The notes below the pieces were generated by a model that had not been told where the DNA came from, ran no database searches, and saw nothing but the letters and a program-made list of their open reading frames with translations. This document shows, piece after piece, positions 46,301 through 62,489 of a stretch of DNA of 64,000 nucleotides. The stretch is taken from positions 17,458 to 81,457 of the IMG/VR virus record IMGVR_UViG_3300018481_000020. One strand, written 5' to 3'. The stretch is from a virus. Numbering within the stretch: position 1 is the stretch's first letter; every line of letters starts with the position of its first letter. Both the position numbers and the translations under genes were made by a program.

Positions 46301-49282
46301 GTCGGAGCCTTCTACGACGCGACCAACCACCTCTTCACCACGCTGAAGGAATCCGGGTTGTCCAACCTGGAGATCCTGCGGCAGATGAAGCAGGCCACCC
46401 AGGACATCCGGGACGACAACAACCGTTACTCCGAGATCGCGGGACAGGTCGCGCTGAAGGCACAGCAGTCGCTGACCGCACAGGCTCCCGGTATGGGTCG
46501 AGCAGGTGCCTTCCAGCAACAGATCGACATCGGCAAGTCGATGATGAGCATCAAGCCGACGACTCCTCAGGGTCGTGAGGATATCGAGCAGGCGAAGCAG
46601 ATGACGGTCCAGGCGTTCCAGGACCAGGACGCCTACTTCCGGCAGCTGATCCTGGCCCAGCAGGCCTACGAACGAAATCGAGCCCGGGCACAGCAGGACT
46701 ACAGCATCCAGCGGTCCTACCAGGAGTACGACTTCCAGCTGAGTCGGGAACGTGCCGAGGAGAGCTTCAACCGGAACCGCGCTCGGGCAGTGGCCGACTA
46801 CTACCGCAACGTGCGACGGGCCCACTACGACTTCAACCTCCAGCGTCGCCGGCAGGAGCAGGACTTCAACCACCAGGTTGAGGTGATGACCAAGCAGCAG
46901 GCGATGAGCGTCTACAACATCTACGAGCGGGTGCAGGCACAGCGCACCTCCTCGGCGAACTGGCTGCTGTCCAATGCTGGTGACCAGCTCAAGCGGATGG
47001 AGGAGCAGGCAGCGAACCTCGACAAGCTCCGCAAGATGGGGGTCTCGACCAACGTCATCCAGCAGATGAAGCTGGATGACCCTCAGAACGCCCAGCAGCT
47101 GTCCCGGTTCGTCACCGAGCTCACGCCACAGATGATCCGGCAGTTCAACAAGGTGGCCGGTACCCAGCGACTGAAGGCGGCCAAGGAGCTGGTCACCGAC
47201 CCCTCCAGCCTGGAGTGGCGAGAGATGGTGCGCTCGCACCGGCAGTCGATGGACCGTGCTGCCATGGACATGCGCCGCACGATGCGGCAGGGCCGCCAGG
47301 ACTTCAGGCGCGGCCTGAAGGAGATGGACGAAGACTTCGACATCATGATGGAGGACCAGGCCGAGGACTACGTCACCAACATGAATCGGCAGGAGAAGCA
47401 GTACAAGCGGACCATGGACCAGGCCGCCGAGGACATGGGGCACATGGCCGATGAGGTGCTGGGCAGCATTACTGATGTCTTGGTGCAGGCCGGGGACAAG
47501 CTGACCGGAGCAGCCCAGACCCAGGCACGGCAGGCCCTGGCGGCCTTCAGGAACCTGAAGAACGAGGCCACGCCCGAGGCCGAAGCGCTGATGAAGGAGC
47601 TCTCCCAGGTCTTCGGGTTCAAGTACACGAGCCCACTGAAGGGCGGCGGAGATGGCAACCGTGGACAACCCGCCAGCCCTCGATCAATCAGCCCTGCGAA
47701 CAGGGCTGCTGGTGGTGTGCTGCCGGGGTACACCCCTGGCGTAGACGTGCATCACTTCACCTCCAAGACAGCTGGCGATCTGAACCTCTCCGGTGGTGAG
47801 GCGGTGATGGTCCCGGAGTGGACCAAGGCTGTCGGCGGCAAGGGTGCTGTCGATGATATGAACCGGAAGGCGCGGGGTGCTCCGGGCAGGTCCTACCTTC
47901 AGGGCCCTGCCTTCGCCCAAGGTGGTGTCTGGCACCCCGGTAGGCGGTCCTCGGACGCGGCGGACACCCTGGACAGGGCCTGGGACATCAACTCGCCCGG
48001 CGGCACGGGCACCCCCGTGCGGGCGTTCCTGGACGGCATCGTGACCAGGGCGGTTCGGCAACTGACCTCCTACGGTAACTACGCGATGATCAACCACCAG
48101 GCGGCGAACCTGCAGACTCTCTATGCGCACATGTCGAAGCTGTACGTGCGAGCGGGTCAGCACGTCGACCGGGGCGAGATGATCGGTCGTGAAGGCTCTG
48201 TGGGTAACTCATCCGGTCCACACCTTCACTTCGAGATCGGTGGTGGACAGAGCGCCATCCGACGTGCGGGTACTGGCGGCAGCTGGGCTGGAGGCGGTGG
48301 TGGCGGAATGACCACGGGCCAGATCGTCCAGAGCGTTCTCAAGACGCTCTACCCGAAGTCCGAGCGTGCTGCCAAGGCGATGGACGGCGTGCACCCACTG
48401 TGGCCAGGTGACATCTCGGAGGTGATCAACCGGCTGGCCAAGAAGAAGATCGGCAAGCTGATCGAGAAGTACGGAGCACCTGGCGGCGATTCTGGATACG
48501 GTCTGGCCGGTCTGCCGTCGGGAGCCAGGTTCAGTGCCAATGCCAAGGGTGTCTGGGATGCGCTACGAGCTGTCGGGTTCAACAAGATCCACACCGCCGG
48601 AATCATGGGCAACATGCTGCACGAGTCTGGCTTCGACCCGCACATCATCCAGGGCGGCGGCCACTCGATGAACCCAGGCGATGCCGGGAGTGGTGGCTAC
48701 GGGCTGGTGCAGTGGACACCCGGTCGCAAGCTGACCCCGTACCTGCACGGGAAGCTACCGACAGTGGCCACCGAGGTCAACGCACTGGCAGCACAGCTGT
48801 CTGGTAGGGGCTCATCTCCAGAAGGCGCAGCGGGTGCAGCCCTGCGTGCTACCCGGACAGTCCCTGCGGCCACCATCGCGTTCGAGACGAAATACGAGCG
48901 GCACGCGGATCCACCGATCCAGCCGGGGCGACAAAGAGATGCGCAAGCTTTCTACCGCCGGTATGCAGCCGATGGTGCGGTCGTCAGCGGCGCTCAGCAG
49001 ATGACGGTGGGTGAGGCCGGCCCGGAGGCAGTGATCCCGCTGAACGACCGGGGCGCGAACTTCATGAGAGATGTGATGGCCTCGACTATGGGTGGGCGCG
49101 GCGTCACTCCGGCTCTGGGCGCAGGAACGAACGTCTACAACACCTCCATCGACCGGTCCACCAACTTCACCGGTGCGATCACGGTCCAGGCCAACAACCC
49201 CCAGGAGCTGATCGGAAAGCTGAAGGCACGCCAGCGCGTGATGGCCCTGAGTCGCCCGTCACTGACAGGATCGGCAGCATGA
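43340..49282 (+). CDS. Tape measure protein with M23 peptidase and phage-lysozyme domains
   Basis: The 1980-aa protein sets tail length. Long helical and coiled-coil regions alternate with small-residue hydrophobic stretches (about 410-435 GMVMRVIAPLAGGAGAMLL and about 690-760, rich in Gly/Ala). Tyr/Arg/Gln-rich repeats (NRARAQQDYSIQRSYQEYDF) lie at about 1115-1180. An M23 peptidase (about 1550-1640, ending GPHLHFEIGGG) and a phage tail lysozyme domain (about 1735-1830, GIMGNMLHESGFDP and YGLVQWTPGRKL) follow. The two muralytic domains would open the cell wall during DNA entry. Confidence 0.92.
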   Translation: MTSQPVEANVVLTTDNAQYDQAMMGSAQSTDALGKSIDSLGQKINQLSKSAGKKLLTFTAADVALIGGATAALSSYEKQMSRLQSQSAILSRTSDQQNRTMKDYTGAVKGLRSEFGTTTAEAAKLVGTLSKVTGLRQSRDLGELSKVFVEMSHATGESSEGLANSLTNLQKIMGTEINSKNTRQYADTFTYLSSQTNMSATGLADFTAQLAPMGRSIGMNEKQVAGFATAFTRAGSEGMGAATVFTKVTGDISKSLASGSPEIAHYANLIGVTNKQFKSMDGGEQLLRIMESISAMGPQAATELERLGLDGTRSMRAIQAVINEKGGIREALGMADDPRASGSSQRGSEASMKSLNDEYDHLRENLKQTAEAMGSYFMPAMNAFVSGMVVATQAVENLAEGPLGEFTGMVMRVIAPLAGGAGAMLLFAGALLKIAGAFTLLRNSGSRGIMEGLRGGSRIVQGADGRFAAAGGGTLGVRGAQIAEQGTWFQRGLYNTGQAIGAPLAGIGSGSREGWIRARQAVDPNWSPSERRRGPLSYLAGGLGRGIETFATPLWDQMRYDDPTKRSTWLGRQAPWASLKDTQNLSKAMGQTGLAQAQYQLQKSQVGRIEADPMLTNAQRKQQLDNVRQIQEETKQRIDAGKAAEIAARDEIAAKRTNTAETDKNSKGFGRLTRAVGGFTAGMGGGLYGAGKAGVQGIMASGMAGQAGGMAATVAGGATGSQALMLGGTGAMIGSMVAPGIGTAVGAGIGTIAGLAMDASGANDSLTDSLKNLDDQAAEVAKSGSGLSDFREATAKHREELDKFEASVGSTAEGRRVDEFWNAAPSLEKFKQAPSTVKNWLEGAVGSSDVEEGEREARKREDKAQRYEVTARELAKTGGVDITGTPQQQLKQLDEFMSTEGAQMLDDAKVDFKDLAEASKTTGFVFNNPLLPGAQKDKGKSQYDLFMEKIEDRPLGETVEDRVATTQGGRALMGSDEVKKSVRLQGDVGAFYDATNHLFTTLKESGLSNLEILRQMKQATQDIRDDNNRYSEIAGQVALKAQQSLTAQAPGMGRAGAFQQQIDIGKSMMSIKPTTPQGREDIEQAKQMTVQAFQDQDAYFRQLILAQQAYERNRARAQQDYSIQRSYQEYDFQLSRERAEESFNRNRARAVADYYRNVRRAHYDFNLQRRRQEQDFNHQVEVMTKQQAMSVYNIYERVQAQRTSSANWLLSNAGDQLKRMEEQAANLDKLRKMGVSTNVIQQMKLDDPQNAQQLSRFVTELTPQMIRQFNKVAGTQRLKAAKELVTDPSSLEWREMVRSHRQSMDRAAMDMRRTMRQGRQDFRRGLKEMDEDFDIMMEDQAEDYVTNMNRQEKQYKRTMDQAAEDMGHMADEVLGSITDVLVQAGDKLTGAAQTQARQALAAFRNLKNEATPEAEALMKELSQVFGFKYTSPLKGGGDGNRGQPASPRSISPANRAAGGVLPGYTPGVDVHHFTSKTAGDLNLSGGEAVMVPEWTKAVGGKGAVDDMNRKARGAPGRSYLQGPAFAQGGVWHPGRRSSDAADTLDRAWDINSPGGTGTPVRAFLDGIVTRAVRQLTSYGNYAMINHQAANLQTLYAHMSKLYVRAGQHVDRGEMIGREGSVGNSSGPHLHFEIGGGQSAIRRAGTGGSWAGGGGGGMTTGQIVQSVLKTLYPKSERAAKAMDGVHPLWPGDISEVINRLAKKKIGKLIEKYGAPGGDSGYGLAGLPSGARFSANAKGVWDALRAVGFNKIHTAGIMGNMLHESGFDPHIIQGGGHSMNPGDAGSGGYGLVQWTPGRKLTPYLHGKLPTVATEVNALAAQLSGRGSSPEGAAGAALRATRTVPAATIAFETKYERHADPPIQPGRQRDAQAFYRRYAADGAVVSGAQQMTVGEAGPEAVIPLNDRGANFMRDVMASTMGGRGVTPALGAGTNVYNTSIDRSTNFTGAITVQANNPQELIGKLKARQRVMALSRPSLTGSAA

Positions 49283-49743
49283 GGAACACTGCGGCAGTCA
49301 AGACCGGGCTGGACTACATGGCCGCAGAGATCTCCTACGGCACTAGGTGGGTCAACCTCAACGACCAGGAGGTCTACAAGATCGGGGCGGAGCAGACCCG
49401 GGACTCCACTGCTAAGACCTGGCGCAAGGTGACTGCGGAGTCTCCGATCCTGGGTGGCAACTACCTGATCCACGCGGTCCCGGACATGGTCCAGGAGCAC
49501 ATCTCCGTCTGGGTCTACGGTCAGACCCAGACCGAGGTCAGCGACAACCTGTTCGGTCTGGTGGACCTGTTCGAGCAGTACGACTTCCGGATCCGGTGGA
49601 CCTTCGATGAGTACCGGGAGTACTGGCGTTGCCAGCTGGCTGATGCCACCTACTCCCGAAGCAACATCTGGACGCACAGCCTGATGGCCAAGGCCGACTT
49701 CGCCGTGCCGAGATACCCCGATGTGACCAGGGAACGAATCTGA
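49279..49743 (+). CDS. Minor tail protein (distal tail-like), 154 aa
   Basis: It overlaps the tape measure stop as ATGA, the usual position of the distal tail gene, but it is shorter than most. The sequence is beta-rich (EISYGTRWVNLNDQEVYKIGAEQTRD, HISVWVYGQTQTEVSDNLFGLVDLFEQYDFRIRWTFDEY). Likely the first baseplate protein. Confidence 0.65.
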   Translation: MRNTAAVKTGLDYMAAEISYGTRWVNLNDQEVYKIGAEQTRDSTAKTWRKVTAESPILGGNYLIHAVPDMVQEHISVWVYGQTQTEVSDNLFGLVDLFEQYDFRIRWTFDEYREYWRCQLADATYSRSNIWTHSLMAKADFAVPRYPDVTRERI

Positions 49744-50183
49744 TGGGGGGTCAACTCACCATCTGGGGTGCCAGCCAGCTCCTGATGTCCTACTTCTCCA
49801 AGACCGTGGAGGCACCCCCGGACCTGTACCTGGCCCTGATCAGGGTGATCGCGCCCACCCCCTACGTCTCCGGATCCGAGCTGGATGAACCAACCAACAC
49901 CGACTACGCCCGGGTCGCGATCCCCAACGACCTGGATGCCTGGATGAACGAGTCCCAGCCCCAGGAGGTGCACAACCTGGAGCCAGTGGAGTTCATCACC
50001 GCAGTGTCCGACTGGGGTGAGGTCCGCTACTGGGCGCTGTGCAATGCCGAGGTGGATGGCTACAGCCTGCTCGTCGGAGAGCTGGAAACCCCCATGGTGG
50101 TCTCCACCGGAGACCAGGTCGTGATCGAGGAGGGTGACCTGAGCGTGGCCCTGGGCCCGTTCTTCCTGGTCGAGGAGGAGTAA
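49743..50183 (+). CDS. Minor tail protein, tail-fibre family, 146 aa
   Basis: The pattern LTIWGASQLLMSYFSKTVEAPPDLYLALIRV, YARVAIPND, YWALCNAEVDGYSLLVGELETP, and EEGDLSVALGPFF matches the phage tail-fibre family that is also represented at 20814. It overlaps the previous gene by one base. Probably a baseplate-attached structural protein. Confidence 0.65.
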   Translation: MGGQLTIWGASQLLMSYFSKTVEAPPDLYLALIRVIAPTPYVSGSELDEPTNTDYARVAIPNDLDAWMNESQPQEVHNLEPVEFITAVSDWGEVRYWALCNAEVDGYSLLVGELETPMVVSTGDQVVIEEGDLSVALGPFFLVEEE

Positions 50184-51161
50184 ATGGCTGTGATCAAGGT
50201 GGTCCCAGGACGCACCGAGGTCCAGCTGGTGGCCCACAACCGAGCCAGCTGGGTGCCGCCCCTCCTCAAGGACGTGCCCGGCGGGCTGTACCCGTTGATG
50301 AGCGCGGCCTTCGAGGTCGACGAGTACCGGATCCTGGATGGCTGGCCGGTGCCGGTCCCGGAGTTCGACATCTGCGTCAACGTGCTGGTCAGTGCCGAGG
50401 GAGACGCGCTGGGCAACCGGGACGAGCCGACCGCGCTGACCACGAATGCGGACATGCGCTGGATCGCAGACTCGAACTACTACGACCAGACCTCGTTGAC
50501 CTGGACCCCGATCCAGTCCGATGCACCACCGTGGACCACCACCCCGGAGCACGCGCCCTCGCTGATCAGTGACTACGAGTACCGGATCGGGGACGAGCGG
50601 TTCGTGGACATGACCGCGCTGAACTTCGACTCCAACACGGCTGACTACATGTGGAACGACCTGGGCCTGTACATGGGCGGGGTCGAGGGCTACACGGTGG
50701 TGATGGTGCTCTGCCCGAACTCGATCTACGGCAATGACCCAACGGTGATCGACAACGGCCTGTGGGGACCGGCCAGCACTGAAGGTGCCTGGCACACCTT
50801 CACCGTCCGGGACCAGGCAGTGTGCATGACCACCGAGCTGAACCCGGAGCAGAAGGGAGTCTCCATCGGGAACGCGCTGGCCTCCACCGCGCCCACCTTC
50901 CTGGCGATGGTGATCGGTAGGCCTCAGACGACGCTGTACGCCGGTCCAGGGCCTTCCAACCTGGTGGTGAAGTCATTGCCCTCCGGAGTGGCTCCCACGC
51001 CGCTGAGCACCCATTTCTGGCTCGGGAACGCGCCTTCCTCAGCGACCGGGACCATGGACATGGCGCTGCTCGACCTGGGCATCTATGGCGGGCCGCTGAC
51101 CAGCTCCGAGGTGGTCACCGAGTTCGCTGCGCTGAGCTCGATCTACGGCGGTGATACGTGA
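50184..51161 (+). CDS. Minor tail protein with a lectin-like (LamG/ConA-type) domain
   Basis: The 325-aa product has a strand-rich N-terminal part (VQLVAHNRASWVPPLLKDVPGGLYPLM). From about residue 150 the pattern (NDLGLYMGGVEGYTVVMVLCPNSIYG, HTFTVRDQAVCMTTEL, FLAMVIGRPQTTLYAG, MDMALLDLGIYGGPLTSSEV) is typical of concanavalin/LamG beta-sandwich domains that often bind sugars. Likely a baseplate adhesin. Confidence 0.65.
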   Translation: MAVIKVVPGRTEVQLVAHNRASWVPPLLKDVPGGLYPLMSAAFEVDEYRILDGWPVPVPEFDICVNVLVSAEGDALGNRDEPTALTTNADMRWIADSNYYDQTSLTWTPIQSDAPPWTTTPEHAPSLISDYEYRIGDERFVDMTALNFDSNTADYMWNDLGLYMGGVEGYTVVMVLCPNSIYGNDPTVIDNGLWGPASTEGAWHTFTVRDQAVCMTTELNPEQKGVSIGNALASTAPTFLAMVIGRPQTTLYAGPGPSNLVVKSLPSGVAPTPLSTHFWLGNAPSSATGTMDMALLDLGIYGGPLTSSEVVTEFAALSSIYGGDT

Positions 51162-53410
51162 AGTCCCTGACCGCCTATCCATCCGAGCAGCAGCCGCTGG
51201 GCTACTTCCGGATCTTCGTCCGGCCTCCCGGCGGCTATCGGCGCGAGATCACCGTGTTCCGTGGTGCTCCGGTCCGGGTGGATGGAGTGACCACCCAGGA
51301 CCCGTTCACCGACGTGACCGCCAGCCTGGCGCTGCCTCAAGTCACCGTCTTCGACACTCCCGGTGAGGGAGACCTGGGCTGGCTGGTGCCGGACACCGAT
51401 GTCGACATCGTGTTCCAGAACGTGGGGGACTATGAGTTCGACTGGCGCTGGGAGGGCTACATCGCCTCCTACAACTTCAGCCTGTCCGGTGCTGACTCTG
51501 CCTACAACATTGACCTGAAGGGAGCCTTCTTCGGGTTGGACGACTACCTGGCCATCCCGCAGTTCCCGAAGCGACCGATCCCGTACGAGATCCTGATGGC
51601 CCAGGCCTTCGACCAGACTGAGCACCCGGCGCACCTGGGCAAGTTCCGGATCCTGTTCCCGGCCGACTGGTCGCTACGAGTGCCACCGTTCAAGGATCCG
51701 ACCTATTTGAGCATGCTGAAGCCCTGGGGGATCGCCACCGATCACCTCTGGACCGGGTTCACTGCCCGCAACACCGGGTCCTGGGAGCCGCTGCTCTCCG
51801 GTTTCGTACAGAGTCTGCTGACCGTGATGTTCGCCGAAGGTGGTTCCCAGTGGAGCATCCGGAACCGGGGCAACCGCCGGCCCGAGCTGTACCTGCGTCG
51901 GATCCCGGAGGCCGACAGCGACAGGATCGTCGAGATCCATCTCGGAGCTCCTGGGGTGATCATTGACGGCAGTCGAGACTTTACCCAGCGTGCCGGGGTG
52001 ATCTTCGGGTCCGGAGCAGACGAGGCCGGCATCACCTACTCCAACATCGAGGTCTCCCCAGACGGTCGACGGACCTACTACAAGCCGTACGCCTACTCCC
52101 CACGGATGTGGCCACGGAAGTCCAACCCGAACTTCGACAAGCGGTTGAAGCCCAAGGAGACGATGGTCCGGTTCCAGGACGGTGTCGATGAGGTCTCCGC
52201 GATGAAGATCGCCCAGGGCCAGTACCAGCGGTTCGCGGAGCCGGGGATCACCGGATCGATCACGCTGACCACCGATCCTCGGCTGAGCTCGGGGGAGCTG
52301 ATGCCCCGGCTGCTGATCAAGGGTGGGATGACGATCCGGATCAACGGCCTGTTCGGAGTCCGGGAGGGAGTGCTGGCACATGTCACCCAGGCTGTTGCGG
52401 ACTTCAACGGGCTGACCATGTCGCTGACCTTCGACACCAAGTACCGCGACCAGCTGACCGTGGAGGAGGTCCGGGCCCGCACCCGGGACGCGCTCACCCC
52501 GATGCGGGCGCTGCAGATCGGCAAGTACTCAAACACCATCCAGGATCTGATCCTGCCGTGGTCCTACAAGGCAGGCTCCGGGGTGGTGCCGACGCCGGCG
52601 AAGGCGTTCTTCGCCGAGAAGCTGCCGGCCGATGCCACCTTCCCGTACGAGACGTGGACCCGGCTGTACCCACCGAAGAACCCCTCCTACAAGTCCTGGT
52701 ACATCGAGATCGGTAAGACCCATACCAGCAACTCCAACAACAACTGGAGCTCGATGAAGCGCGGCGGGATCGCCACCGCCTCGATCCCGATCCGGATGGG
52801 TCAGGCTGGCACGATCCGGCTCACCCAGATAGCTGCTTACGACAAGGACGGCAACGTGCTGCCGGTGAAGTTCCATGTCAGCCTGTACTACGTGAACTCG
52901 GTAGCAGTGGACTCGATGCCGCAGTTCCCGGGTGCGCGCGGCAGTGAGGACTTCCCGGACTACCTCGCGGCCCGCAAGATCGCTGTCAAGGGTGCAACCA
53001 TCATCCCGACCACCTTCCAGACGGCGCTGGGGCAGAAGGCCCAGACACACCCGTTCTACAAGGGTGCCTTCGAGACCGTGCAGCCCGACGGCACTCACTT
53101 CCCCTGGGGCGCGGATGTCCAGCTGGCCGATGAGTCCCAGGTCGTTGGCTGGGGCAACTACTACGAGCCGGCCGGCTACTCCCCGGGCCGATTCTCCAAG
53201 GGTGCCGCGCGCACCGGGCTGCTGGAGGACGCCACTCCCTGGGGTTGGGACCTGACCGGGCCCGGGAACCTGAACCTGGACAAGCCGGCCGACAACGCCA
53301 AGGAGGAGTACGCCGGATGCTTGTTCATCATGATCTACTGCCAAGACCAGTTCGATGAGTCGGTGTTCTTTATGGGTCGCTTCATTCGACAAGAACCAGG
53401 ACAGAGCTGA
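51158..53410 (+). CDS. Baseplate hub/minor tail protein, 750 aa
   Basis: GTG 51158 overlaps the previous stop. The N-terminal 430 residues have the long beta-rich and mixed layout (VRVDGVTTQDPFTDVTASLALPQVTVFD, ISGSTxxx-like DFTQRAGVIFGSGADEAGITYSN, VRFQDGVDEVSAMKIAQGQYQRF, GSITLTTDPRLSSGELMPR) typical of siphovirus tail hub (gp27-like) proteins of actinophages. The C-terminal 300 residues are a beta-rich, possibly carbohydrate-binding, extension. It probably forms the tail tip. Confidence 0.7.
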   Translation: MKSLTAYPSEQQPLGYFRIFVRPPGGYRREITVFRGAPVRVDGVTTQDPFTDVTASLALPQVTVFDTPGEGDLGWLVPDTDVDIVFQNVGDYEFDWRWEGYIASYNFSLSGADSAYNIDLKGAFFGLDDYLAIPQFPKRPIPYEILMAQAFDQTEHPAHLGKFRILFPADWSLRVPPFKDPTYLSMLKPWGIATDHLWTGFTARNTGSWEPLLSGFVQSLLTVMFAEGGSQWSIRNRGNRRPELYLRRIPEADSDRIVEIHLGAPGVIIDGSRDFTQRAGVIFGSGADEAGITYSNIEVSPDGRRTYYKPYAYSPRMWPRKSNPNFDKRLKPKETMVRFQDGVDEVSAMKIAQGQYQRFAEPGITGSITLTTDPRLSSGELMPRLLIKGGMTIRINGLFGVREGVLAHVTQAVADFNGLTMSLTFDTKYRDQLTVEEVRARTRDALTPMRALQIGKYSNTIQDLILPWSYKAGSGVVPTPAKAFFAEKLPADATFPYETWTRLYPPKNPSYKSWYIEIGKTHTSNSNNNWSSMKRGGIATASIPIRMGQAGTIRLTQIAAYDKDGNVLPVKFHVSLYYVNSVAVDSMPQFPGARGSEDFPDYLAARKIAVKGATIIPTTFQTALGQKAQTHPFYKGAFETVQPDGTHFPWGADVQLADESQVVGWGNYYEPAGYSPGRFSKGAARTGLLEDATPWGWDLTGPGNLNLDKPADNAKEEYAGCLFIMIYCQDQFDESVFFMGRFIRQEPGQS

Positions 53411-53772
53411 TGGACAACAGCATCACTGACGAGCAGGCGCACAACTGGCTCCAGGAGATAGCGGAGAGTGGCTGGGTCAGTCTGCACTTCGACAACCCCG
53501 CGCTCGGTGGTGAGGATCGTGCAGAGATCTCCGGTGGTGCCTACGCCCGGTACAAGATGGTCTGGACCCGGCCCAACAACCGAGCGATCTGGTCCTTGGC
53601 CGACGCCAGGTACACCGGACTGCAGCAGACCAAGATCACCTACTTCGGAGTCTGGAACGCCGGGGTCAAGGGGTTCCTACGTGCCTACGGAGAACTGCCC
53701 AACCCCGCCATGATCCTGAACGGCAAGGGCTACGTCCTGCACGCTGGATTGATCGCGATCAGCTTCGGCTGA
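53410..53772 (+). CDS. Minor tail protein, 120 aa
   Basis: The product (SITDEQAHNWLQEIAESGWVSLHFDNPALGG...ISGGAYARYKMVWTRPNNRAIWSLADARYTGL, ending NPAMILNGKGYVLHAGLIAISFG) matches the phage tail-fibre-like beta family with a VWNA..G.flr.ygel..p segment. It is the last rightward gene before the convergent leftward operon and overlaps the previous gene by one base. Confidence 0.65.
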   Translation: MDNSITDEQAHNWLQEIAESGWVSLHFDNPALGGEDRAEISGGAYARYKMVWTRPNNRAIWSLADARYTGLQQTKITYFGVWNAGVKGFLRAYGELPNPAMILNGKGYVLHAGLIAISFG

Positions 53773-53787
53773 CCTGTTTTTGGGCAT

Positions 53788-53990
53788 AAAAAAAGGACCT
53801 AGAGTCCCCGACTCCCCTCCGAAGAGGAGAGCCGGGGGCTCTAGGTCTGGGGCGATCACCCCGGGTAGTCCGCTGCCTGGTCTGGCTAGACGAACGGGTC
53901 CTGCGTGATCCAGAGGACCATACTTACTGTTGAACCAGTGTGGACCCTTCTAAATCGGGGTGACCTAGTGTGATACGCACCTATCACACT
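53788..53990 (-). ncRNA. Candidate short leftward non-coding RNA, about 200 nt
   Basis: An extended -10 box on the minus strand (53997-54005) would place a transcript start near 53990. The next terminator lies at 53796-53847 with its U-tract to about 53788. The interval carries only an 11-codon ATG frame (MVLWITQDPFV) without a ribosome-binding site. A 5' palindrome, a small GGGGTGATCGCCCC hairpin and the terminator would give a structured RNA. This is a hypothesis from sequence alone. Confidence 0.45.
53796..53847 (-). terminator. Strong intrinsic terminator for leftward transcripts
   Basis: A 15-bp stem (arms 53796-53810 and 53833-53847, one G-U) encloses a second stem with loop CGAA. Read on the minus strand, the hairpin is followed by CCTTTTTTTATG (seven U). 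On the plus strand there is no U-tract, so it works mainly for leftward transcripts, though the hairpin may also slow rightward RNA polymerase. Confidence 0.85.
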
Positions 53991-53991
53991 A
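53966..53991. promoter_or_regulatory. Perfect 10-bp-arm palindrome TAGTGTGATA-N6-TATCACACTA
   Basis: Arms 53966-53975 and 53982-53991 are exact inverse repeats with spacer CGCACC. It abuts the predicted start of the leftward transcript from the box at 53997-54005. This could be a repressor operator or a 5' stem-loop. No U-tract follows on either strand, so it is not a terminator. Confidence 0.65.
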
Positions 53992-53996
53992 CATTC

Positions 53997-54005
53997 ATTA
54001 TAGCA
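53997..54005 (-). promoter_or_regulatory. Extended -10 promoter element TGCTATAAT
   Basis: The minus strand reads TGCTATAAT (plus-strand ATTATAGCA at 53997-54005), a perfect match to TGnTATAAT. The region is locally AT-rich in a GC-rich genome. A good -35 at 17 bp is not evident, which an extended -10 can tolerate. It lies downstream of the GIY-YIG gene and points to the leftward terminator. Confidence 0.5.
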
Positions 54006-54022
54006 CATACACTTCAGTATGG

Positions 54023-54745
54023 CTATCTCTTGTGCCGGAAAGGTGCTGTGGTAGTGAACTTGATGTGGTTCCACAGCACGATGGGTTGACCCTCGTAGAG
54101 CCTGACCATCGCCTTCTCCAAGCGATCAGACTGATCCCGGTTCTCCGTGTGCGCTGTCCTGACCCAAAGCGCTCGTCGGTCCATAGCTTTTTCCCGGTGC
54201 TCCTGCTGCTGCTTGATCGAGGCATTGTCATATGCCTCACGCTCAGCGTGAGTGCCATAGTCGCGCAGGTAGTCCTCCATCACCTTGAGTGCTGGCGTGC
54301 TACGTCCTACGCCTCTGGCGTGCTGCTTCAGACGGGTACTGAGGATGTTCGACCGGCCGACGTACCGAGGAAGCGCCTCGATGAAACGAGGTTCGTACCC
54401 GTTCGGTGTGAGCTCGAAGATGACATAGACCCCGTACTGTTGCCGGTCTCGTCGGTACTCCTCACTCATGTAATCCTTGTACTGAGAGAGCAGACAGGCC
54501 GGATGCCACTCAGCCATGGCCAGCAGCACTTCGTCACCCTCAGCCCGTCGTGGTGGAGCATCCCAACCCCTGAAACCATGAGCCTTCAACGGGCTTTCCC
54601 ATGGATTACCTAAATCTCGGCTGGCCCGAGGCTGGCTAGCGATCAGAGCATCGAACTCTGGATCAGCCACTGGGTTTGCCTGTGGAACTACCGAAGGTTC
54701 ATGAACCGGTACGTTCACGAACCGTTCTGCACTTGTTTCTGTCAT
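54023..54745 (-). CDS. GIY-YIG-type endonuclease-like protein
   Basis: The 240-aa protein has a YGVYVIF strand at about residue 104, then RYVGRSNILSTRLKQHARG (Arg131), the core of the GIY-YIG catalytic domain, followed by a helical part with YGTHAEREAYD. The first 90 residues are disordered and Pro-rich. I chose ATG 54745 (AAGGAATGGAGC upstream). It could be a freestanding homing endonuclease or a host-DNA nuclease. It is bracketed by two similar terminators. Confidence 0.65.
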   Translation of the reverse strand: MTETSAERFVNVPVHEPSVVPQANPVADPEFDALIASQPRASRDLGNPWESPLKAHGFRGWDAPPRRAEGDEVLLAMAEWHPACLLSQYKDYMSEEYRRDRQQYGVYVIFELTPNGYEPRFIEALPRYVGRSNILSTRLKQHARGVGRSTPALKVMEDYLRDYGTHAEREAYDNASIKQQQEHREKAMDRRALWVRTAHTENRDQSDRLEKAMVRLYEGQPIVLWNHIKFTTTAPFRHKR

Positions 54746-54778
54746 GCTCCATTCCTTTCTGGTTGTAAGACACAAAAA

Positions 54779-54824
54779 GGACCTGTGGGGCCGCCCCTCC
54801 GAAGAGAGACGGCCCCGTGGGTCC
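54779..54824 (-). terminator. Intrinsic terminator, second of a similar pair
   Basis: Arms 54779-54793 and 54810-54824 pair over 15 positions with three G-U. The minus strand continues CCTTTTTGTG. It abuts the stop of the 34-codon gene. The stem begins with GGACCT and the loop contains CCTCCGAAGAG, as in the terminator at 53796-53847. Confidence 0.8.
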
Positions 54825-54929
54825 CTATGCTTCCAGCGTCTGCTGAAGTGTCTTCAGCTCGATGACCAGATCGATGAACGTCTGGACCACCGCGATGGCC
54901 ATCCTGATGAATCCGAGTAACCAGCTCAT
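54825..54929 (-). CDS. Tiny hydrophobic peptide, 34 aa
   Basis: ATG 54929 lies seven bases after GGAGG and overlaps the stop of the upstream gene (ATGA). The peptide starts MSWLLGFIRMAIAVVQTFID and continues as an amphipathic helix (LVIELKTLQQTLEA). The strong ribosome-binding site, coupling and terminator right after it argue for a real gene. A membrane-associated peptide is likely; the function is unknown. Confidence 0.65.
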   Translation of the reverse strand: MSWLLGFIRMAIAVVQTFIDLVIELKTLQQTLEA

Positions 54930-55264
54930 CCCCATACCTCCTCTCGGAAGTAGGCGTGAGCAGTCTTGCGTGCCAGCACGGGATCACTCCCGAGCTTCCA
55001 CCCAGGCCAGCCGACACCTGGCTTGTCGTCCTTGCCGACCACGTACGCCGTCAGATCCGGCTCACCTTTGAAGGTGGTGTGCTCGGTCACCTTGCGGAGC
55101 ATCCCACCGACATGACGACGATGGCATCCCCGACCCTGCATCACGCGCAGGATCGTGGCGAGCTGACCATACGAGATCGGTCGAGTGGACTCAGCTGCCA
55201 GGCCGACCAGCAGTACGTACACCGATATCCACCGAGGCTCGACCTGGATGTCCTCCGCACTCAC
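54926..55264 (-). CDS. Small winged-helix-like protein, 112 aa
   Basis: GTG 55264 overlaps the stop of the ParB-like gene (GTGA). The segment ISYGQLATILRVM, then RHVGGMLRKV, then PDLTAYVVGKDDKPGVGW resembles the winged-helix domains of the alkyltransferase C-terminal type (SYGqLA...). No catalytic PCHR motif is present, so DNA binding without repair activity is the best guess. Confidence 0.55.
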   Translation of the reverse strand: MSAEDIQVEPRWISVYVLLVGLAAESTRPISYGQLATILRVMQGRGCHRRHVGGMLRKVTEHTTFKGEPDLTAYVVGKDDKPGVGWPGWKLGSDPVLARKTAHAYFREEVWG

Positions 55265-56160
55265 TGCACCTCGGGCATGAAGTCCGTGCCCGGCCGGAAA
55301 CGCAGCTGGAAGCGGTCGGTCTGGGTGACGTAGTCGTTCCAGGACTTGATCCCGTTGGCCAGGAAGATCGTCGGCCGCCAGGTGGGCGAGGTCTTGTAGT
55401 AGGCATCGGAGATCAGCCACTTGCGGAATGCCAGGATCGGGCTGCCGGACTCCAGGTTGACACCGTCAACCACCCTGTCCAGGAACTCCTCCTGAGCCGA
55501 GGGACCCTTCTCGCTGTGAATGGCGATCACAGCGAGCAGCACCGTCGATGAGGTCCGCATCCCGTAACGGCCGAACTCCTTGGCGATCATGTAGCCGGAA
55601 CGGATCGACTCCTGGACGACCTTGCCGATCTCGGGGTCATCCAGTGCTTCCAGGATGTCGACGGTGGTCATGGCCCATGCCGGTTGGCTGAGCCTGGTGC
55701 TGGTGTTGACGACCTCCGGATAGGCCAGTACCTGTCGAGTAGTCGCCGCCAGCACGTTCACGTCGGTGTAGCCGGCGATCTTGAGGCTGTCACCAGGTGA
55801 GCGAACCGCTCCGGTGTCGATGACCCCGAAGGTATCCGGGTCGGCGTCGAATGCCACCAACGACGGGATGTGCTTGCGCTGGCTGGCGATGGCGGTGAGC
55901 CGGTGCCGTCCATCGAGGACGTAGCCGGTGGGATCCAGTGCGATCGGCTGGTGGGTCATCTTCCACTCATCGTTCTCGATCGCGTGCAGGATCTTGCTGA
56001 TGTTGCGCTGCTTGAGCGTTCGCTGGTTGCGCTCAGGCGAGACCGTCAGCCACTCCCGAGCTTGCTGCGGACTGATCCTCATCGGAACGATCCGTGGCCC
56101 CTTGACCTTGGGCCTTCTGGTGGACTTCTTCCCATCGGTGTTGCTAGTGGGTTCTGACAT
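55261..56160 (-). CDS. ParB/sulfiredoxin-like DNA-binding or nuclease protein, 299 aa
   Basis: The first third has a ParB-like core (RISPQQAREWLTVSPERNQR, then QPIALDPTGYVLDGRHRLTAIA). The rest is helical (SLKIAGYTDVNVLAATTRQVLAYPE, TTVDILEALDDPEIGKVVQES). Phage ParB-like proteins often work as nucleases or in DNA segregation or antirestriction. The gene is in the middle of the leftward operon and shares GTGA with the next gene. Confidence 0.7.
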   Translation of the reverse strand: MSEPTSNTDGKKSTRRPKVKGPRIVPMRISPQQAREWLTVSPERNQRTLKQRNISKILHAIENDEWKMTHQPIALDPTGYVLDGRHRLTAIASQRKHIPSLVAFDADPDTFGVIDTGAVRSPGDSLKIAGYTDVNVLAATTRQVLAYPEVVNTSTRLSQPAWAMTTVDILEALDDPEIGKVVQESIRSGYMIAKEFGRYGMRTSSTVLLAVIAIHSEKGPSAQEEFLDRVVDGVNLESGSPILAFRKWLISDAYYKTSPTWRPTIFLANGIKSWNDYVTQTDRFQLRFRPGTDFMPEVQ

Positions 56161-56167
56161 GTTGTTC

Positions 56168-56320
56168 TCATTCCTTCATGGTGTGGTTGTCGTACTCGTC
56201 CCATGCGTCATCGATCCATCGGTGGGTCGATGTTTTGAACCCGCACAGGCACTTGATCACCGCACCAGCCGAGGTTTCCTTGACCTCAACCGGGCGATGC
56301 ATTGCTGTGGCTCTCGCCAT
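56168..56320 (-). CDS. Small zinc-ribbon-like protein, 50 aa
   Basis: The frame encodes AVIKCLCGFKTSTHRWIDDAW-type sequence near its centre, with a Cys pair and His that could hold a zinc. The start is uncertain (ATG 56320 or ATG 56302) and the upstream Shine-Dalgarno is weak. It overlaps the previous gene. Function unknown. Confidence 0.45.
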   Translation of the reverse strand: MARATAMHRPVEVKETSAGAVIKCLCGFKTSTHRWIDDAWDEYDNHTMKE

Positions 56321-56570
56321 ATTTCTTGCCGATCACGAAGCCGAGACAGTAGATCTGCATCGCGGCTAACGGATCGTTCACACTGGCCTCGCCGTTCGCG
56401 TGCTGATACGCAGCAACCGCTTCGGCGGCATGCTTGGCCAGCTCTCCCAACTCCAGACCAGCCACCTCAAGAAACGGTGGGTTGTCTGACACCTGGCTCT
56501 CTAGGTCACCGACCACTGAGTCCAGGGTGCTCTTCAGTTCGTTCTCCTGGTTGGTACGCCATTGAGGCAT
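56286..56570 (-). CDS. Hypothetical helical protein, 94 aa
   Basis: ATG 56570 has AGGAAGGAATAGTC upstream. The protein is acidic and helical (ENELKSTLDSVVGDLESQV, LELGELAKHAAEAVAAYQHANG), ending with an IYCLGFVIGKKYG segment. No recognised domain. It lies after a strong hairpin and before the zinc-ribbon gene. Confidence 0.6.
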   Translation of the reverse strand: MPQWRTNQENELKSTLDSVVGDLESQVSDNPPFLEVAGLELGELAKHAAEAVAAYQHANGEASVNDPLAAMQIYCLGFVIGKKYGESHSNASPG

Positions 56571-56590
56571 GACTATTCCTTCCTGGTAGG

Positions 56591-56632
56591 CACAGGGAGA
56601 GGAGCCCTGGGGGTGGGTCACCTCTCCCTGTG
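56591..56632 (-). terminator. 12-bp-arm intercistronic hairpin
   Basis: CACAGGGAGAGG (56591-56602) and CCTCTCCCTGTG (56621-56632) are exact inverse repeats with an 18-nt loop. No U-tract follows on the minus strand. It lies between the stop at 56638 and the next ribosome-binding site, so it may be a weak terminator, an RNA-processing site or a 3' stabiliser. Confidence 0.5.
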
Positions 56633-56637
56633 GGCTC

Positions 56638-57402
56638 TTAGAACTCGACGACCTCGTCGTCCCCGAACCGGTCCTTGATCATCTCCTCACGCTTGCTGCC
56701 GGCCTCGGCTCGGAGCACCACTGCGAGGACCAGGTCCTTCTCCTTCATCGTTCGCATGGTGGCCACGTCGCCGTGGAACAAGATGGCCTCTTCATCGAGC
56801 ATCTCCGTGAACAGCTTGAGCATGGGGTTCCCCTGCTCCAGATTCTCGGAGATCAGGTCAGTCGCCTTGGGTCGCTGCATCATGTCCTGGAGCCAGTCGA
56901 ACATGACACCGGTGCCAGTCGTGTCGTCCTCACCTTCCTCGCTTGAACCCATGGAGATCGGCTCACCCCAGGTGATCTGGTCCTCCTTGATCACGTAGGG
57001 AAGTGAGTACAAGGCCCAGCCACCATCGCGATCGTGGATGGTGGTGGTCAGGCACGGTGAGACCCAGCCCTTCTCGGCAGCGTCCGGATAGGTCTCCGAG
57101 ACGTACTGCATCTCCTTGGGCATCCAGTCCTTGCCAGTCACCGGCGACTCCTTCAGCTTCGAGGTGTAGGACTCGAAGGTGATGGACACGACATCGGCGC
57201 TGAAGCCCATCACCCCGATCGAGGCCGCCTGCAACGCAACGTCCCGATCTACCGGGCACTGCGCCATGATGGCCATGTCCTCGCCCCTCCAGAAATGCAG
57301 GTAGATCGCCAGGTCCGGGTTCTCAGGCAGCTCCGCCACCCAGTCATCCTTGGTCTGCTGCATCACGTCGTTGATCTGTGTGATCTGTTCCTTCAGGCTC
57401 AT
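56638..57402 (-). CDS. Hypothetical protein, 254 aa
   Basis: ATG 57402 has GGGAGACGAGTC upstream and ATGA-overlaps the previous gene. The protein has mixed helix and strand (PDLAIYLHFWRGEDMAIMAQCPVDRDVALQAA, SPCLTTTIHDRDGGWALYSLPYVI) and an acidic middle. No catalytic motif recognised. Codon use and overlaps make it a confident gene with unknown function. Confidence 0.65.
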   Translation of the reverse strand: MSLKEQITQINDVMQQTKDDWVAELPENPDLAIYLHFWRGEDMAIMAQCPVDRDVALQAASIGVMGFSADVVSITFESYTSKLKESPVTGKDWMPKEMQYVSETYPDAAEKGWVSPCLTTTIHDRDGGWALYSLPYVIKEDQITWGEPISMGSSEEGEDDTTGTGVMFDWLQDMMQRPKATDLISENLEQGNPMLKLFTEMLDEEAILFHGDVATMRTMKEKDLVLAVVLRAEAGSKREEMIKDRFGDDEVVEF

Positions 57403-58061
57403 GACTCGTCTCCCTGCGTTGCGAGCTCGATTCCGTCCAGCACGTCCCGTTCCCGCCAGGTCGTGCCCAGGTGATGTCCAGCCAGGTAGGAAGCGCACGC
57501 GCAGGCTGTTCCGACGAGCAGCCACACGTCCCAGACCTTGCCGGGGTCGACATCTCGATGAGCGAACCCGGTGATGTGGGACAGGTGCGCTACGCCTCCC
57601 TCGATGTACTCGTTGAAGTACGCCAGCACACTTGAGTCCTCAGCGAAGCCCTTCGCCATCGTGCGCGAGGCTTCCCGGAACGGCTCCTCGGTGAAGATCA
57701 GCTCCAGCTTGTTGAAGTGGTCGAAGATCCTGACCGCCTGATGCTGCTGGTGCCCGACCATCACGCCGTCGGTGAAGGTCTCCAACACCAACGCCAGCAG
57801 GTACTCCGCCATCACCTGCGAGGTCAGCTCCATCAGCTGATCAGCATTGGTGGGCATCGTCGACCCAGCGAAGTGCCGATAGCCACGTCGAGTGATCGCC
57901 ATCAGCCGGTCCCCGTAGTAGTCCCGCATCGCGTTGAATCCTGGAGGGAAACCCTGCTCTCGGGGGTCTCCGGGACCGAGCACCGTGACCGGTCCACGAT
58001 CGCCGTGGTCGTCTCTGGTCCTCTCGAACGAAGCCCTGACTTCCTCGATCAGATCAGCCAT
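57399..58061 (-). CDS. Hypothetical protein, 220 aa
   Basis: ATG 58061 overlaps the previous stop (ATGA). The product is helical (VMAEYLLALVLETFTDGVMVGHQQH, IFDHFNKLELIFTEEPFREASR) with a hydrophobic C-terminal segment (VWDVWLLVGTACACASYLAGHHLG) that may be buried or membrane-associated. Unknown function. Confidence 0.65.
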   Translation of the reverse strand: MADLIEEVRASFERTRDDHGDRGPVTVLGPGDPREQGFPPGFNAMRDYYGDRLMAITRRGYRHFAGSTMPTNADQLMELTSQVMAEYLLALVLETFTDGVMVGHQQHQAVRIFDHFNKLELIFTEEPFREASRTMAKGFAEDSSVLAYFNEYIEGGVAHLSHITGFAHRDVDPGKVWDVWLLVGTACACASYLAGHHLGTTWRERDVLDGIELATQGDES

Positions 58062-58330
58062 CACATCTCCCGAGATTCTAGAAACTGCAGGTAGCTGCTG
58101 ATCAATCCCGGTGTCAGGAACACCGGCACCAGCTGGGGCTGGTCTGCCTGGTAGGCCCGGCCAGCCACGAAGCACAGCACCGCGACGCTCTGCTCTTCCC
58201 GAGTCAGCTCCACCTCATTGGCCAAGCAGACCTTGGTGATCATGTCTCGGATCTCATTCTCTTCGTCGCCACCGACATCTACGCCGGCAGCGGCGATCGC
58301 CTCCTGAGTGAAGGCGGTCTCGATATCCAT
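58061..58330 (-). CDS. Hypothetical protein, 89 aa
   Basis: ATG 58330 follows AGGGAGATTCAG. The product is acidic and helical at the front (EAIAAAGVDVGGDEENEIRDMITKVC) and has an EEQSVAVLCFVAGRAYQ core. Similar in style to the 94-aa protein, perhaps of the same group. Unknown function. Confidence 0.6.
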   Translation of the reverse strand: MDIETAFTQEAIAAAGVDVGGDEENEIRDMITKVCLANEVELTREEQSVAVLCFVAGRAYQADQPQLVPVFLTPGLISSYLQFLESREM

Positions 58331-58353
58331 CTGAATCTCCCTTACATGGTGGA

Positions 58354-58389
58354 GTCCGGGGGCCAGCGTTGAACAACTGACCCCCGGAC
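58354..58389 (-). terminator. 9-bp-arm GC-rich intercistronic hairpin
   Basis: GTCCGGGGG (58354-58362) pairs exactly with CCCCCGGAC (58381-58389); inside it GTTG pairs with CAAC. No U-tract follows on the minus strand. It separates the AAA+ gene from the 89-aa gene. Likely a weak terminator or processing signal. Confidence 0.5.
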
Positions 58390-58410
58390 GCTTTCGGTGT
58401 AGCGGTGTAA

Positions 58411-59913
58411 CTAGGCAGCTACGACGATCTCACCCTCGTCGTTGACGTAGGCGCTCTGCTGGATCGCCTTGCCCACCAGCTTCGTGAGTGCCACATCGAT
58501 CTCGGGCTCATCCTTCTTGCGAGCCTTCGCGTCGGTGTGCATCTGCCAGGCCGACCGGAGCTCATCCGCGCAACGCACGAAGTCATCGGTCGACATCGGC
58601 TGACCCTCCTCACCGGTGCGGATCAAGGTGTAGACCTCGACCCCCTCCAGCGCCTGCACGATCCAGGACGGAGCGAAGCCCTCGTAGGCGGTGTGCAGAC
58701 GCTCGTAGTCGAGGTCCTCACGCTGCCCTGCCGGGATCATCACATTGATCAGCTTCTCCACTCCCTCACGATCGAGGTCGGAGACGTAGATCATCCGGTT
58801 GATGCGGCCGGCCCGGGTCAGCTCCGGCGGGAGCTTCTCCGGGTAGTTCGAGGTCATCAGCAACATCACCTCGCGACCCTTGGTGCGCATCCCGTCGAAC
58901 TGCTCCATCAACTCGTCCATCTTGCGCGGGTTGTCGGAGAGCAGCTTCTCGACATCTTCGATCACCACAGCGACCGGAGTGCCGAGCAGCTCGGCGAACC
59001 TCATCACGTGCTTGAGGTCCTCGTCGTAGCGCGCCTGGATGAAGCTCCAGTCGTGCTCCAGGCAGAACTGCGCGGTGATCGCAGCGGCCAGCGTCTTGCC
59101 GGTGCCGTTCTCACCGTGCATCAGCACCTTGTTGCCCAGCAGAGACGGCTTCACCTTGCGGAGCAGCTCGCTCTTCTGGATCCGACCCCAGATGGAGTAC
59201 GTCAGCGCGTCACCCACCGTCTGGGCGTAGACGACCTTCTCGCGATCGATCGTGTACGGGTTGAAGAACTCCGGCTCCTTGTAGGCACCGCCCGCGATCC
59301 GGCCGACACCGATCAGCGCCTTGTTCCGGTAGATGCTGTCCTGCCGGATGTAGGACTCGACCAGCATCAGCAGGCCACGGATCTCCACCTCGTACTTCTT
59401 CTTGGCCATGACGTAGATCTGGAAGGCCATTCCATAGTCCTCGTCAGGGCGCTCCTGGAGATAGAACTCCGCGCCATAGGGCGGGAACTTCAGGAGCCCG
59501 AACGGCACCTGGATCTCCTCGGTCGGGGAGATCTTCACGGTACGCAGCTCGGGGAGCTGCCCACCGAAGAACGACCGGATCTCCTTGCCGATCGCGGTCA
59601 TGCCGAAGACATCCTTCAGCGCCTTGTTGAAGGCGACGGCACCGTCCATCGGACGGCAGTCGAACGGCTTCGTGAACTCGTGCATGGCCTCTTCAGCCTC
59701 AGCCTGAGCCAGCAGCATGTTCGCTGCCTTCTTCAGACCCATCTTCGCCGGCACCTGGGGGAGGGCGATACGAATGCCCCCATCCTCGCGGTACTCGAAT
59801 GCGGACTCGACGGTGATCCGACCTCCTGCGACTTCTCGCAGGAAGGCGCTCGCCTTCTTCACGTCCTTCTTGGCCTGCTTGTCTTCCCACATGCTGTCTT
59901 CACCTTGTGCCAT
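58411..59913 (-). CDS. AAA+ ATPase, 500 aa
   Basis: The C-terminal half is a standard AAA+ domain: Walker A HGENGTGKT (residues 266-274), Walker B VAVVIEDVE (314-322), sensor-1 TSN (354-356) and an arginine-finger region LTRAGRINR (365-373). The N-terminal 250 residues form a family-specific helical/beta domain. Such single-domain phage AAA+ proteins may remodel host or phage complexes or act in DNA metabolism; the target is not visible. Confidence 0.85.
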   Translation of the reverse strand: MAQGEDSMWEDKQAKKDVKKASAFLREVAGGRITVESAFEYREDGGIRIALPQVPAKMGLKKAANMLLAQAEAEEAMHEFTKPFDCRPMDGAVAFNKALKDVFGMTAIGKEIRSFFGGQLPELRTVKISPTEEIQVPFGLLKFPPYGAEFYLQERPDEDYGMAFQIYVMAKKKYEVEIRGLLMLVESYIRQDSIYRNKALIGVGRIAGGAYKEPEFFNPYTIDREKVVYAQTVGDALTYSIWGRIQKSELLRKVKPSLLGNKVLMHGENGTGKTLAAAITAQFCLEHDWSFIQARYDEDLKHVMRFAELLGTPVAVVIEDVEKLLSDNPRKMDELMEQFDGMRTKGREVMLLMTSNYPEKLPPELTRAGRINRMIYVSDLDREGVEKLINVMIPAGQREDLDYERLHTAYEGFAPSWIVQALEGVEVYTLIRTGEEGQPMSTDDFVRCADELRSAWQMHTDAKARKKDEPEIDVALTKLVGKAIQQSAYVNDEGEIVVAA

Positions 59914-59952
59914 TACAGGTTGAACCTTTCCGAGTTGTGTTACAGGGGGTTG

Positions 59953-60213
59953 TCATTCGATGGGACCGAGACCGTCACGTGCGGCCCCGATATCTACACG
60001 ACACGAGTCGTACCTGGCGTCGTGGTGATGAGCGTGCTGGTTCCGATAGCCCTCATCGAAAAGCACATCGACCTTGCTCTCCAGGCCCTCCACCGCACCG
60101 GTCCGTAAATAGGTACCGGTGCGATTCGCGACTCTGGTGGCAAGCGGCGGGGATAGTGGCTTGTCCGCCTTGTAGATCAGGTCTACGGCTACCCGCAGCC
60201 GATAGATGGTCAT
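59953..60213 (-). CDS. Hypothetical protein, 86 aa
   Basis: ATG 60213 has GAAGGGAACAGT upstream. Short N-terminal strands (MTIYRLRVAVDLIYKAD) lead into a GTYLRTGAVEGLESKVDVLFDEGY segment and a His/Asp-rich stretch (NQHAHHHDARYD) that could bind metal. Unknown function. Confidence 0.55.
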   Translation of the reverse strand: MTIYRLRVAVDLIYKADKPLSPPLATRVANRTGTYLRTGAVEGLESKVDVLFDEGYRNQHAHHHDARYDSCRVDIGAARDGLGPIE

Positions 60214-60244
60214 ACTGTTCCCTTCATGATTCTGTTGGAGTGAG

Positions 60245-60622
60245 CTAGTTGTCGTCCTCTGCTGCTATCTCCTCCTTCCCGAGTAGACGTTCAGCGGTGG
60301 CCATTGCACCGGGCAGTGGCGCTAACCAGTGCCCCTTCGCGTCGAAGTGCACAACGGTCAAGAATGTCTCCGAGCCTTCGCGGTTCTCCACGAGCGCGGT
60401 CCTAATCATCTGGTCCTCACTGAGGTTCAGATAGGCGATCGCCTTGAGCTTTGGCGACTGGACCTGGGCCTTGCGGACGGCAACGTACTGGCTGTAGTCG
60501 GTACCGCCAACACGAGCCAGTACGTTGCCTCCACGACCCAGGAACACCACGCCCTTCGTGCCTTGCGCCACAAGCCCGGCAATGCTCCTGCCGAGCTTGG
60601 TGTCTCTGGGTGCAAAACTCAT
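60245..60622 (-). CDS. Hypothetical protein, 125 aa
   Basis: ATG 60622 overlaps the previous stop. The product starts with small beta strands (GVVFLGRGGNVLARVGGTDYSQYVA) and continues with AIAYLNLSEDQMIRTALVEN. An acidic C-terminus (KEEIAAEDDN) ends it. Not recognised. Confidence 0.6.
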   Translation of the reverse strand: MSFAPRDTKLGRSIAGLVAQGTKGVVFLGRGGNVLARVGGTDYSQYVAVRKAQVQSPKLKAIAYLNLSEDQMIRTALVENREGSETFLTVVHFDAKGHWLAPLPGAMATAERLLGKEEIAAEDDN

Positions 60623-60897
60623 TTCGCAGCTGCCTCCTCCGGTTCGTATGGTCCGAACTCGAAGTCCATGAGCTTGCGCATGGACTCGCTCGGGTTGCCG
60701 ATCACAACCTGCCTGACGAGTACGTCGTTCTCGTCGTACATGGCCATCGCCAGGCACGCATTACGCAGGCCGCCGCCCTTTCCGTTTCCGTCGAAGGCTG
60801 TCGTGAACTTCTGCCGAACGAAGCTCTCGCTCGGGTTCAAGTTCGCGGATTCGCTCTCCAGCACGTACCTGAGCGAGCCCACTCTCTGTTTGATCAT
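60619..60897 (-). CDS. Hypothetical protein, 92 aa
   Basis: A strong ribosome-binding site (GGAGAGGAA) precedes ATG 60897. The protein (LRYVLESESANLNPSESFVRQKFTTAFDG, ACLAMAMYDENDVLVRQVV) has mixed helix and strand with an acidic tail. It lies just after a GC-rich hairpin. Unknown function. Confidence 0.6.
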   Translation of the reverse strand: MIKQRVGSLRYVLESESANLNPSESFVRQKFTTAFDGNGKGGGLRNACLAMAMYDENDVLVRQVVIGNPSESMRKLMDFEFGPYEPEEAAAK

Positions 60898-60923
60898 TTC
60901 CTCTCCTCAAGGTGGCGCGACAA

Positions 60924-60951
60924 AGGGGCGGGGGATCTCTCCCCCGCCCCT
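60924..60951 (-). terminator. 12-bp GC-rich hairpin after the coiled-coil gene
   Basis: AGGGGCGGGGGA (60924-60935) and TCCCCCGCCCCT (60940-60951) pair exactly across a four-base loop; the minus strand continues TTTGTC. The short U-run after a very stable stem makes partial termination likely. It sits 7 nt past the stop of the 452-aa gene. Confidence 0.65.
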
Positions 60952-60958
60952 CCATCAC

Positions 60959-62317: not shown

Positions 62318-62367
62318 CTCATTTCATGGTTGTAGGACGCCCTTATGAGCGACCCTGGACATGCAAA

Positions 62368-62396
62368 AAGCCCCAGGACATCTGGTCCTGAGGCTT
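62368..62396 (-). terminator. Intrinsic leftward terminator
   Basis: AAGCC-C-CAGGAC (62368-62379) pairs with GTCCTG-A-GGCTT (62385-62396); the minus strand then reads TTTTTGC. It lies between the zinc-ribbon gene at 62490 and the coiled-coil gene. It probably ends the upstream transcript or attenuates the next gene. Confidence 0.75.
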
Positions 62397-62433
62397 CCCG
62401 TGTGCGCGGGCATGCTGACGCCTTTGCACACTA

Positions 62434-62461
62434 CTATTGTATCAGATACTAGACACAATAG
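62434..62461 (-). promoter_or_regulatory. Palindromic promoter/operator region
   Basis: CTATTGT (62434-62440) and ACAATAG (62455-62461) are perfect inverse arms around a 14-bp centre; inside is a smaller palindrome GTATCAGATAC (62439-62449). On the minus strand the left arm provides TGATACAAT, a good extended -10 box (62436-62444). The start would lie near 62428, about 60 nt before the terminator at 62368. A regulated, attenuated leftward promoter is a reasonable reading. Confidence 0.45.
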
Positions 62462-62489
62462 CCAGCCCGAGCAGGTTCTAGTGGCTCTT

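Follow-up and report, generated by a model that had tools for sequence, protein, structure and literature searches.

Does the short interval between two converging operons of a phage genome hold an RNA gene, or only the places where transcription stops? The interval is a 250-bp gap in a window of 64,000 nucleotides, the whole stretch of DNA that was analyzed, comprising bases 17458-81457 of an 81,457-base IMG/VR virus record. Rightward replication and structural genes stop at 53772, and the leftward genes occupy the stretch between 54023 and the record end. An earlier note, made from the sequence alone, had proposed a leftward non-coding transcription unit in this gap. That proposal is supported here by a lineage-wide promoter family and by a strand-specific fold that exceeds chance, and judged from sequence comparison and folding models the short non-coding stretch is probably a real small-RNA gene.

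The phage and the gap

The portal protein was only ~45% identical to those of the nearest cultured relatives, mostly Arthrobacter phages, and portals with 72-90% identity were encoded on several dozen further IMG/VR contigs, so the lineage is an uncultured one. We take the phage to be an uncultured soil phage, with an actinobacterial assignment that derives from the nearest cultured phages. No prophage or host came out of a search of bacterial and archaeal genomes with the portal protein.

The coordinates of the features discussed below are collected in Table 1. Gene calls were made with a simple script. The last leftward gene had no Pfam or PHROG family match, and as a marker for closer relatives it yielded no usable homologue, only one weak, partial match in another record. 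No terminator was seen between this gene and the RNA unit. Open reading frames in or reaching into the gap had coding log-odds of -25 to +2.5, where the flanking genes reach about +25 to +43, and these codon statistics bear out the earlier statement that the gap holds no credible gene. Coding remnants in the gap were also considered and rejected because the coding scores were too low. A search for tRNA or tmRNA genes over the whole window found none.

Table 1. Features at the convergence point and the second promoter unit in the window.
Feature	Position	Strand	Description
Last rightward structural gene	53410..53772	+	120 aa, PHROG 240 head protein
Rightward terminator-like hairpin	53759..53779	+	UUCG loop and T-run; overlaps late operon end, convergent with leftward terminator
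Intrinsic terminator	53788..53847	-	23-pair hairpin 53796-53847, U7 53794-53788, then ATGCCC
Central 112-nt RNA domain (predicted)	53854..53965	-	10-bp closing helix GGUCACCCCG/CGGGGUGAUC around multibranch core
5' hairpin	53966..53991	-	perfect 10-bp arms, 6-nt loop, at predicted RNA 5' end
-10 TATAAT	53997..54002	-	part of lineage promoter motif
Lineage promoter motif AGTGTATGTGCTATAAT	53997..54013	-	conserved spacer element and extended -10
-35 hexamer TAGCCA	54020..54025	-	4/6 matches, 17 bp from -10, overlaps end of leftward gene
Last leftward gene	54023..54775	-	168-250 aa depending on start
Second family unit of the window	62357..62470	-	promoter with TGATACAAT (62436-62444), 5' hairpin, terminator, GCATGTCC

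A promoter class of the lineage

The perfect extended -10 element TGCTATAAT that had been noted on the minus strand at 53997-54005 is present, and it is part of the sole sigma-70-type promoter match in 46000-64000 (10/12 matches, spacer 17, TG present). By count alone a single extended -10 match is not significant: TGnTATAAT with at most one mismatch occurs at 2 sites in the 64 kb, this one included, where 4.6 are expected. The sequence upstream of this -10, AGTGTATGTGC, is not random, and the spacer element of the promoter is TGAAGTGTATG. The significance of the promoter lies in a motif of the lineage and its matrix score, not in its count.

This motif, TGTaGTGTwTgTGnTAyAaT, is common to 22 distinct sites in this phage and related IMG/VR phages. 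The pattern AGTGTNTGTGNTANAAT with up to 2 mismatches gave 20 matches in 26 records against 1 control match, and positions 53997..54013 fit it with 0 mismatches. Among the 22 aligned sites the TA.A.T of the -10 is invariant and most TGTnGTGTnTnTG spacer positions are invariant or nearly so, a conservation that inside AGTGTnTGTGnTAnAAT stems partly from site selection, the search pattern having contained its own consensus. The search pattern included neither the TGT immediately upstream nor the context (terminator, gene downstream). The conservation of TGTnGTGTnTnTG between -35 and -10 exceeds what a sigma factor needs. The promoter in the gap deviates from the motif once, with TGA for TGT, so that its spacer, like its -35 hexamer TAGCCA, is weaker than consensus. 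A motif matrix trained without the sites of the window scored 21.2 here and 20.5 at 62470(-), while every other position of the window stayed below the reporting cut-off of 4; chance scores, taken from six simulated windows, peaked at 11.3. Both sites fall in non-coding leftward gaps, the second at 62470-62433, and at the head of the leftward arm the matrix has a third site, around base 8,680 in record numbering.

Nearly all units of the family have a short leader behind the promoter, then an intrinsic terminator and then a gene. Most of the terminators lie at a distance of 64 to about 190 nt from the -10, and CATGTCC or a close variant comes after the terminator; 2 of the 22 units escaped the automatic terminator scan, with a hairpin and T-run visible by eye. 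The downstream gene is on the same strand and mostly at most 150 nt from the terminator, distances that follow from a simple ribosome-binding-site rule with a doubtful start in some units. One site (G006c) sits upstream of a second promoter. The scan detected a hairpin near the 5' end in 18/22 units, with mostly unrelated arm sequences. The energy of these hairpins averaged -9.5 across units versus -4.7 in shuffles (z -4.6), and individually they went beyond shuffles in only about a third of the units. The second unit of the window stands directly upstream of the gene at 60959-62308; it is conserved in several relatives, with a best identity of 74% over about 110 nt. The U-tracts of leader and operon-end terminators, in the window and in relatives, often precede ATGCCC or GCATGTCC, the role of which is not obvious.

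Some units carry inserts, one of them a tRNA and others further hairpins. The tRNA gene (L146:1400-1465, minus strand) is flanked within its leader unit by the 5' hairpin and the terminator. Together with other structured RNAs in the same slot it indicates that this phage group does place RNA genes in such units. A further structured RNA was seen just upstream of a leftward leader promoter in seven phages (L002:8679-8795 on the minus strand, L133, L139, L143, L144, L145 and L146), with compensatory changes in 15/26 pairs, a level reached by 0/500 shuffles; compared with Rfam it gave no credible match. Elsewhere in the window a very stable fold (z -6.5) occurs at 60400-60540 on the minus strand, inside a predicted coding sequence.

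The unit in the gap has the family promoter motif, the 5' hairpin and the terminator, and lacks a downstream gene on the same strand. It fits the anatomy of the family with a 112-nt insert, but is a deviant member and the one clear case without a downstream gene.

Predicted structure of the RNA

Transcription is expected to start at ~53990, which would give a leftward RNA of ~200 nt running from about 53990 to about 53789. The predicted transcript is folded end to end, with an energy of -111.5 kcal/mol (z -8.2, 0/200 shuffles). The centre alone (53854-53965) had a fold z of -4.2. Its ensemble diversity was 0.027 against a shuffle mean of 0.216, with 0/500 shuffles as low, whereas the opposite strand of the same DNA gave 0.242 and was as loose as the shuffles. 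In these models the strand asymmetry of the fold is the best direct evidence for a selected leftward RNA structure.

Because the RNA body is unique to this record, the case for selection on the core is built on how a single sequence folds relative to its shuffles. A covariance model of the core matched only itself among 34 phage records, and no homologue of the core occurred in 33 relatives or in a phage collection. Megablast and distant BLAST searches in isolated phages likewise returned no homologue. Rfam gave no credible match at gathering or relaxed thresholds, and none above the gathering score. Pairing of the core with translation starts of the window genes was not significant, the best duplex being equalled by 5/60 shuffles.

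At the 3' side, the strong terminator with a seven-U tract described earlier is present; its arms, 53796-53819 and 53824-53847, form 23 pairs in the fold. The palindrome with perfect 10-bp arms at the predicted start was also found as described. Inverted repeats of this kind are not rare by themselves (5 distinct ones in the window versus 0.9 per shuffle), and it is the position at +1 that counts. The earlier note had considered the palindrome a possible repressor operator, a reading for which we found no support: a hairpin is often present here in the other family units, but its sequence differs, which fits an RNA structure and not a shared protein site. Furthermore, the half-site has no second copy in the window, and the single match of the palindrome pattern across IMG/VR was unrelated; it lies in AT-rich sequence just behind an apparent open reading frame and has the look of an ordinary terminator. 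The palindrome is best read as a 5' hairpin of the family type. This offers an explanation of the earlier reading, as hairpins at RNA 5' ends can resemble operators.

The syntenic place in relatives

Sixteen syntenic IMG/VR loci contain the last rightward gene, and in 16/16 of them a leftward terminator with a T-run at its end comes directly after it. Where the site had significant BLAST matches in relatives, they fell on this terminator. The promoter and body of the present unit occurred at the syntenic place in 0/16 relatives, an absence that is weak evidence since the records are fragments. Kept in all these relatives, the terminator is thus the end of the leftward operon that the lineage conserves, and the RNA unit, the promoter and body of which they lack at this place, is an insertion specific to this phage. 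Insulation of the two operons, the other function suggested earlier, is not needed to explain the unit, as all these relatives keep the leftward terminator where the promoter of the unit is absent. Close relatives that retain the terminator but lack the promoter and palindrome had been named as grounds for refuting the unit. This is literally what is seen, but the leftward arm is mosaic there and these relatives have no convincing homologue of the neighboring leftward gene, so that the loss points to an insertion in this phage and leaves transcription undisproved.

What stands upstream of the terminator varies among the relatives, with protein genes in several, a pseudoknot-like RNA in L079, L082 and L083, and another promoter-like RNA unit in L097. 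The RNA of the first three lies just upstream of the leftward terminator and contains a hairpin GGGAUAG...CGAGUCCC, the loop of which matches an upstream stretch; the loop matches GUGCAUC/GAUGCAC and GUGCGUC/GACGCAC suggest a covarying pseudoknot. At the convergence point of L083 more than 500 nt of successive strong hairpins with no evident gene are found on the RNA strand 3' of the last rightward gene.

Interpretation of the unit

The account that we favor, and hold to be somewhat more probable than all others together, is a discrete leftward non-coding RNA of ~200 nt that stands alone, would be made from a promoter of the lineage class and may act in trans. Host RNA polymerase would read the interval from a promoter class that the lineage uses repeatedly, and the RNA would consist of the 5' hairpin, the multibranched 112-nt domain and the terminator shared with the leftward operon end. 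The unit would thus be a small RNA embedded in a 3' end with its own promoter, overlapping the end of the upstream gene. As no leftward gene follows, the RNA itself is the likely product. The hairpins may protect both RNA ends, and the folded core may bind a protein or RNA in trans when the leftward operons are active.

There is a smaller yet real chance that the unit is an orphaned attenuator leader, of which the promoter and 5' hairpin remain after the downstream gene was lost or never captured, the short RNA being idle. Nearly all other units precede a same-strand gene, most within about 150 nt of the terminator, while here the first leftward open reading frame with a ribosome-binding site comes only 354 nt on and encodes 35 aa antisense to the late genes; the presence of the unit in one phage only points the same way. 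Decay would not, however, yield a 112-nt core that is folded far better than shuffles on the transcribed strand only, and the -10 is still perfect. That promoter match, hairpin and fold are all chance features of a 3' untranslated region ahead of a real terminator is improbable. By count the single elements are each near chance, but their joint arrangement (-35, 17 bp, extended -10, hairpin, core and U7 terminator) is not, and the matrix score far above simulated windows and the fold statistics also argue against coincidence.

Two readings that assign the site to regulation of the operons themselves carry little weight. In the manner of Q and AlpA, a phage factor could recognize the -35/-10 spacer element and let polymerase read through the terminator, which would yield RNA antisense to the late operon. 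Conservation of the spacer element clearly exceeds the needs of sigma, and a promoter-embedded element with a downstream intrinsic terminator is the architecture of the lambdoid Q and AlpA systems (PMC6606751, PMC9371919). We nevertheless consider such gating quite improbable at this site: none of the 22 units has a -10-like TAnnnT pause element in the region about 7-22 nt past the -10, no homologue of Q or AlpA turned up, the part of the leftward genes covered by domain scans yielded no antiterminator family, the terminator is unusually strong and antisense RNA to the late operon would be an odd output. Very unlikely too is the earlier combination of a repressor-binding palindrome with a unit that merely separates the operons. 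The palindrome at the start site is perfect and the two operons do converge, whereas the differing hairpins of other units, the single half-site and the relatives that insulate by terminators alone speak against it.

Going beyond the stand-alone RNA proposed above, the lineage might rely on a recurring module for control of its leftward operons, in which a promoter containing a recognition element is followed by a short leader, often headed by a hairpin, and by a terminator. One copy of the module might have become a free-standing, structured RNA gene of a novel type, with the transcription machinery of the phage or host as its target in trans. This extension is speculative and we regard it as doubtful.

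Comparison with known systems

Cluster A mycobacteriophages (L5, D29, StarStuff) produce abundant non-coding RNAs from Pleft (PMC5712189). The predicted RNA is like these in being small, apparently non-coding and under a strong leftward promoter in what would be an Actinobacteria phage. The Pleft RNAs are encoded at the genome end, where the early operon begins, and have no evident stem-loop terminator (PMC5712189), whereas the present RNA is at the tail of a leftward operon and has a strong terminator. No sequence relation to the Pleft RNAs was found in the phage collection.

The wider family resembles the lambdoid Q promoter (PMC6606751) and the PalpB/AlpA system of Pseudomonas (PMC9371919) in having a conserved stretch between -35 and -10, a putative embedded element, and after it a short leader, an intrinsic terminator and a gene. 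It differs in lacking the -10-like pause element, and the present unit differs also in lacking a downstream gene. With the pause element absent in 22/22 units we do not class the family with these systems; the likeness appears to be one of architecture. The family suggests that terminators gate transcription in this lineage by way of a promoter-internal element.

Should the interpretation hold, a phage group of which the present searches yielded no isolate gains a concrete RNA gene. More useful is the repeated promoter-leader-terminator module that the analysis exposed. Among bacterial small RNAs, those of 3' ends that have their own promoter show a promoter overlapping the end of the upstream gene and share the terminator of the operon. 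By this general description the unit in the gap is like them in both respects, and it would differ from them in its multibranched 112-nt core and in being a phage gene.
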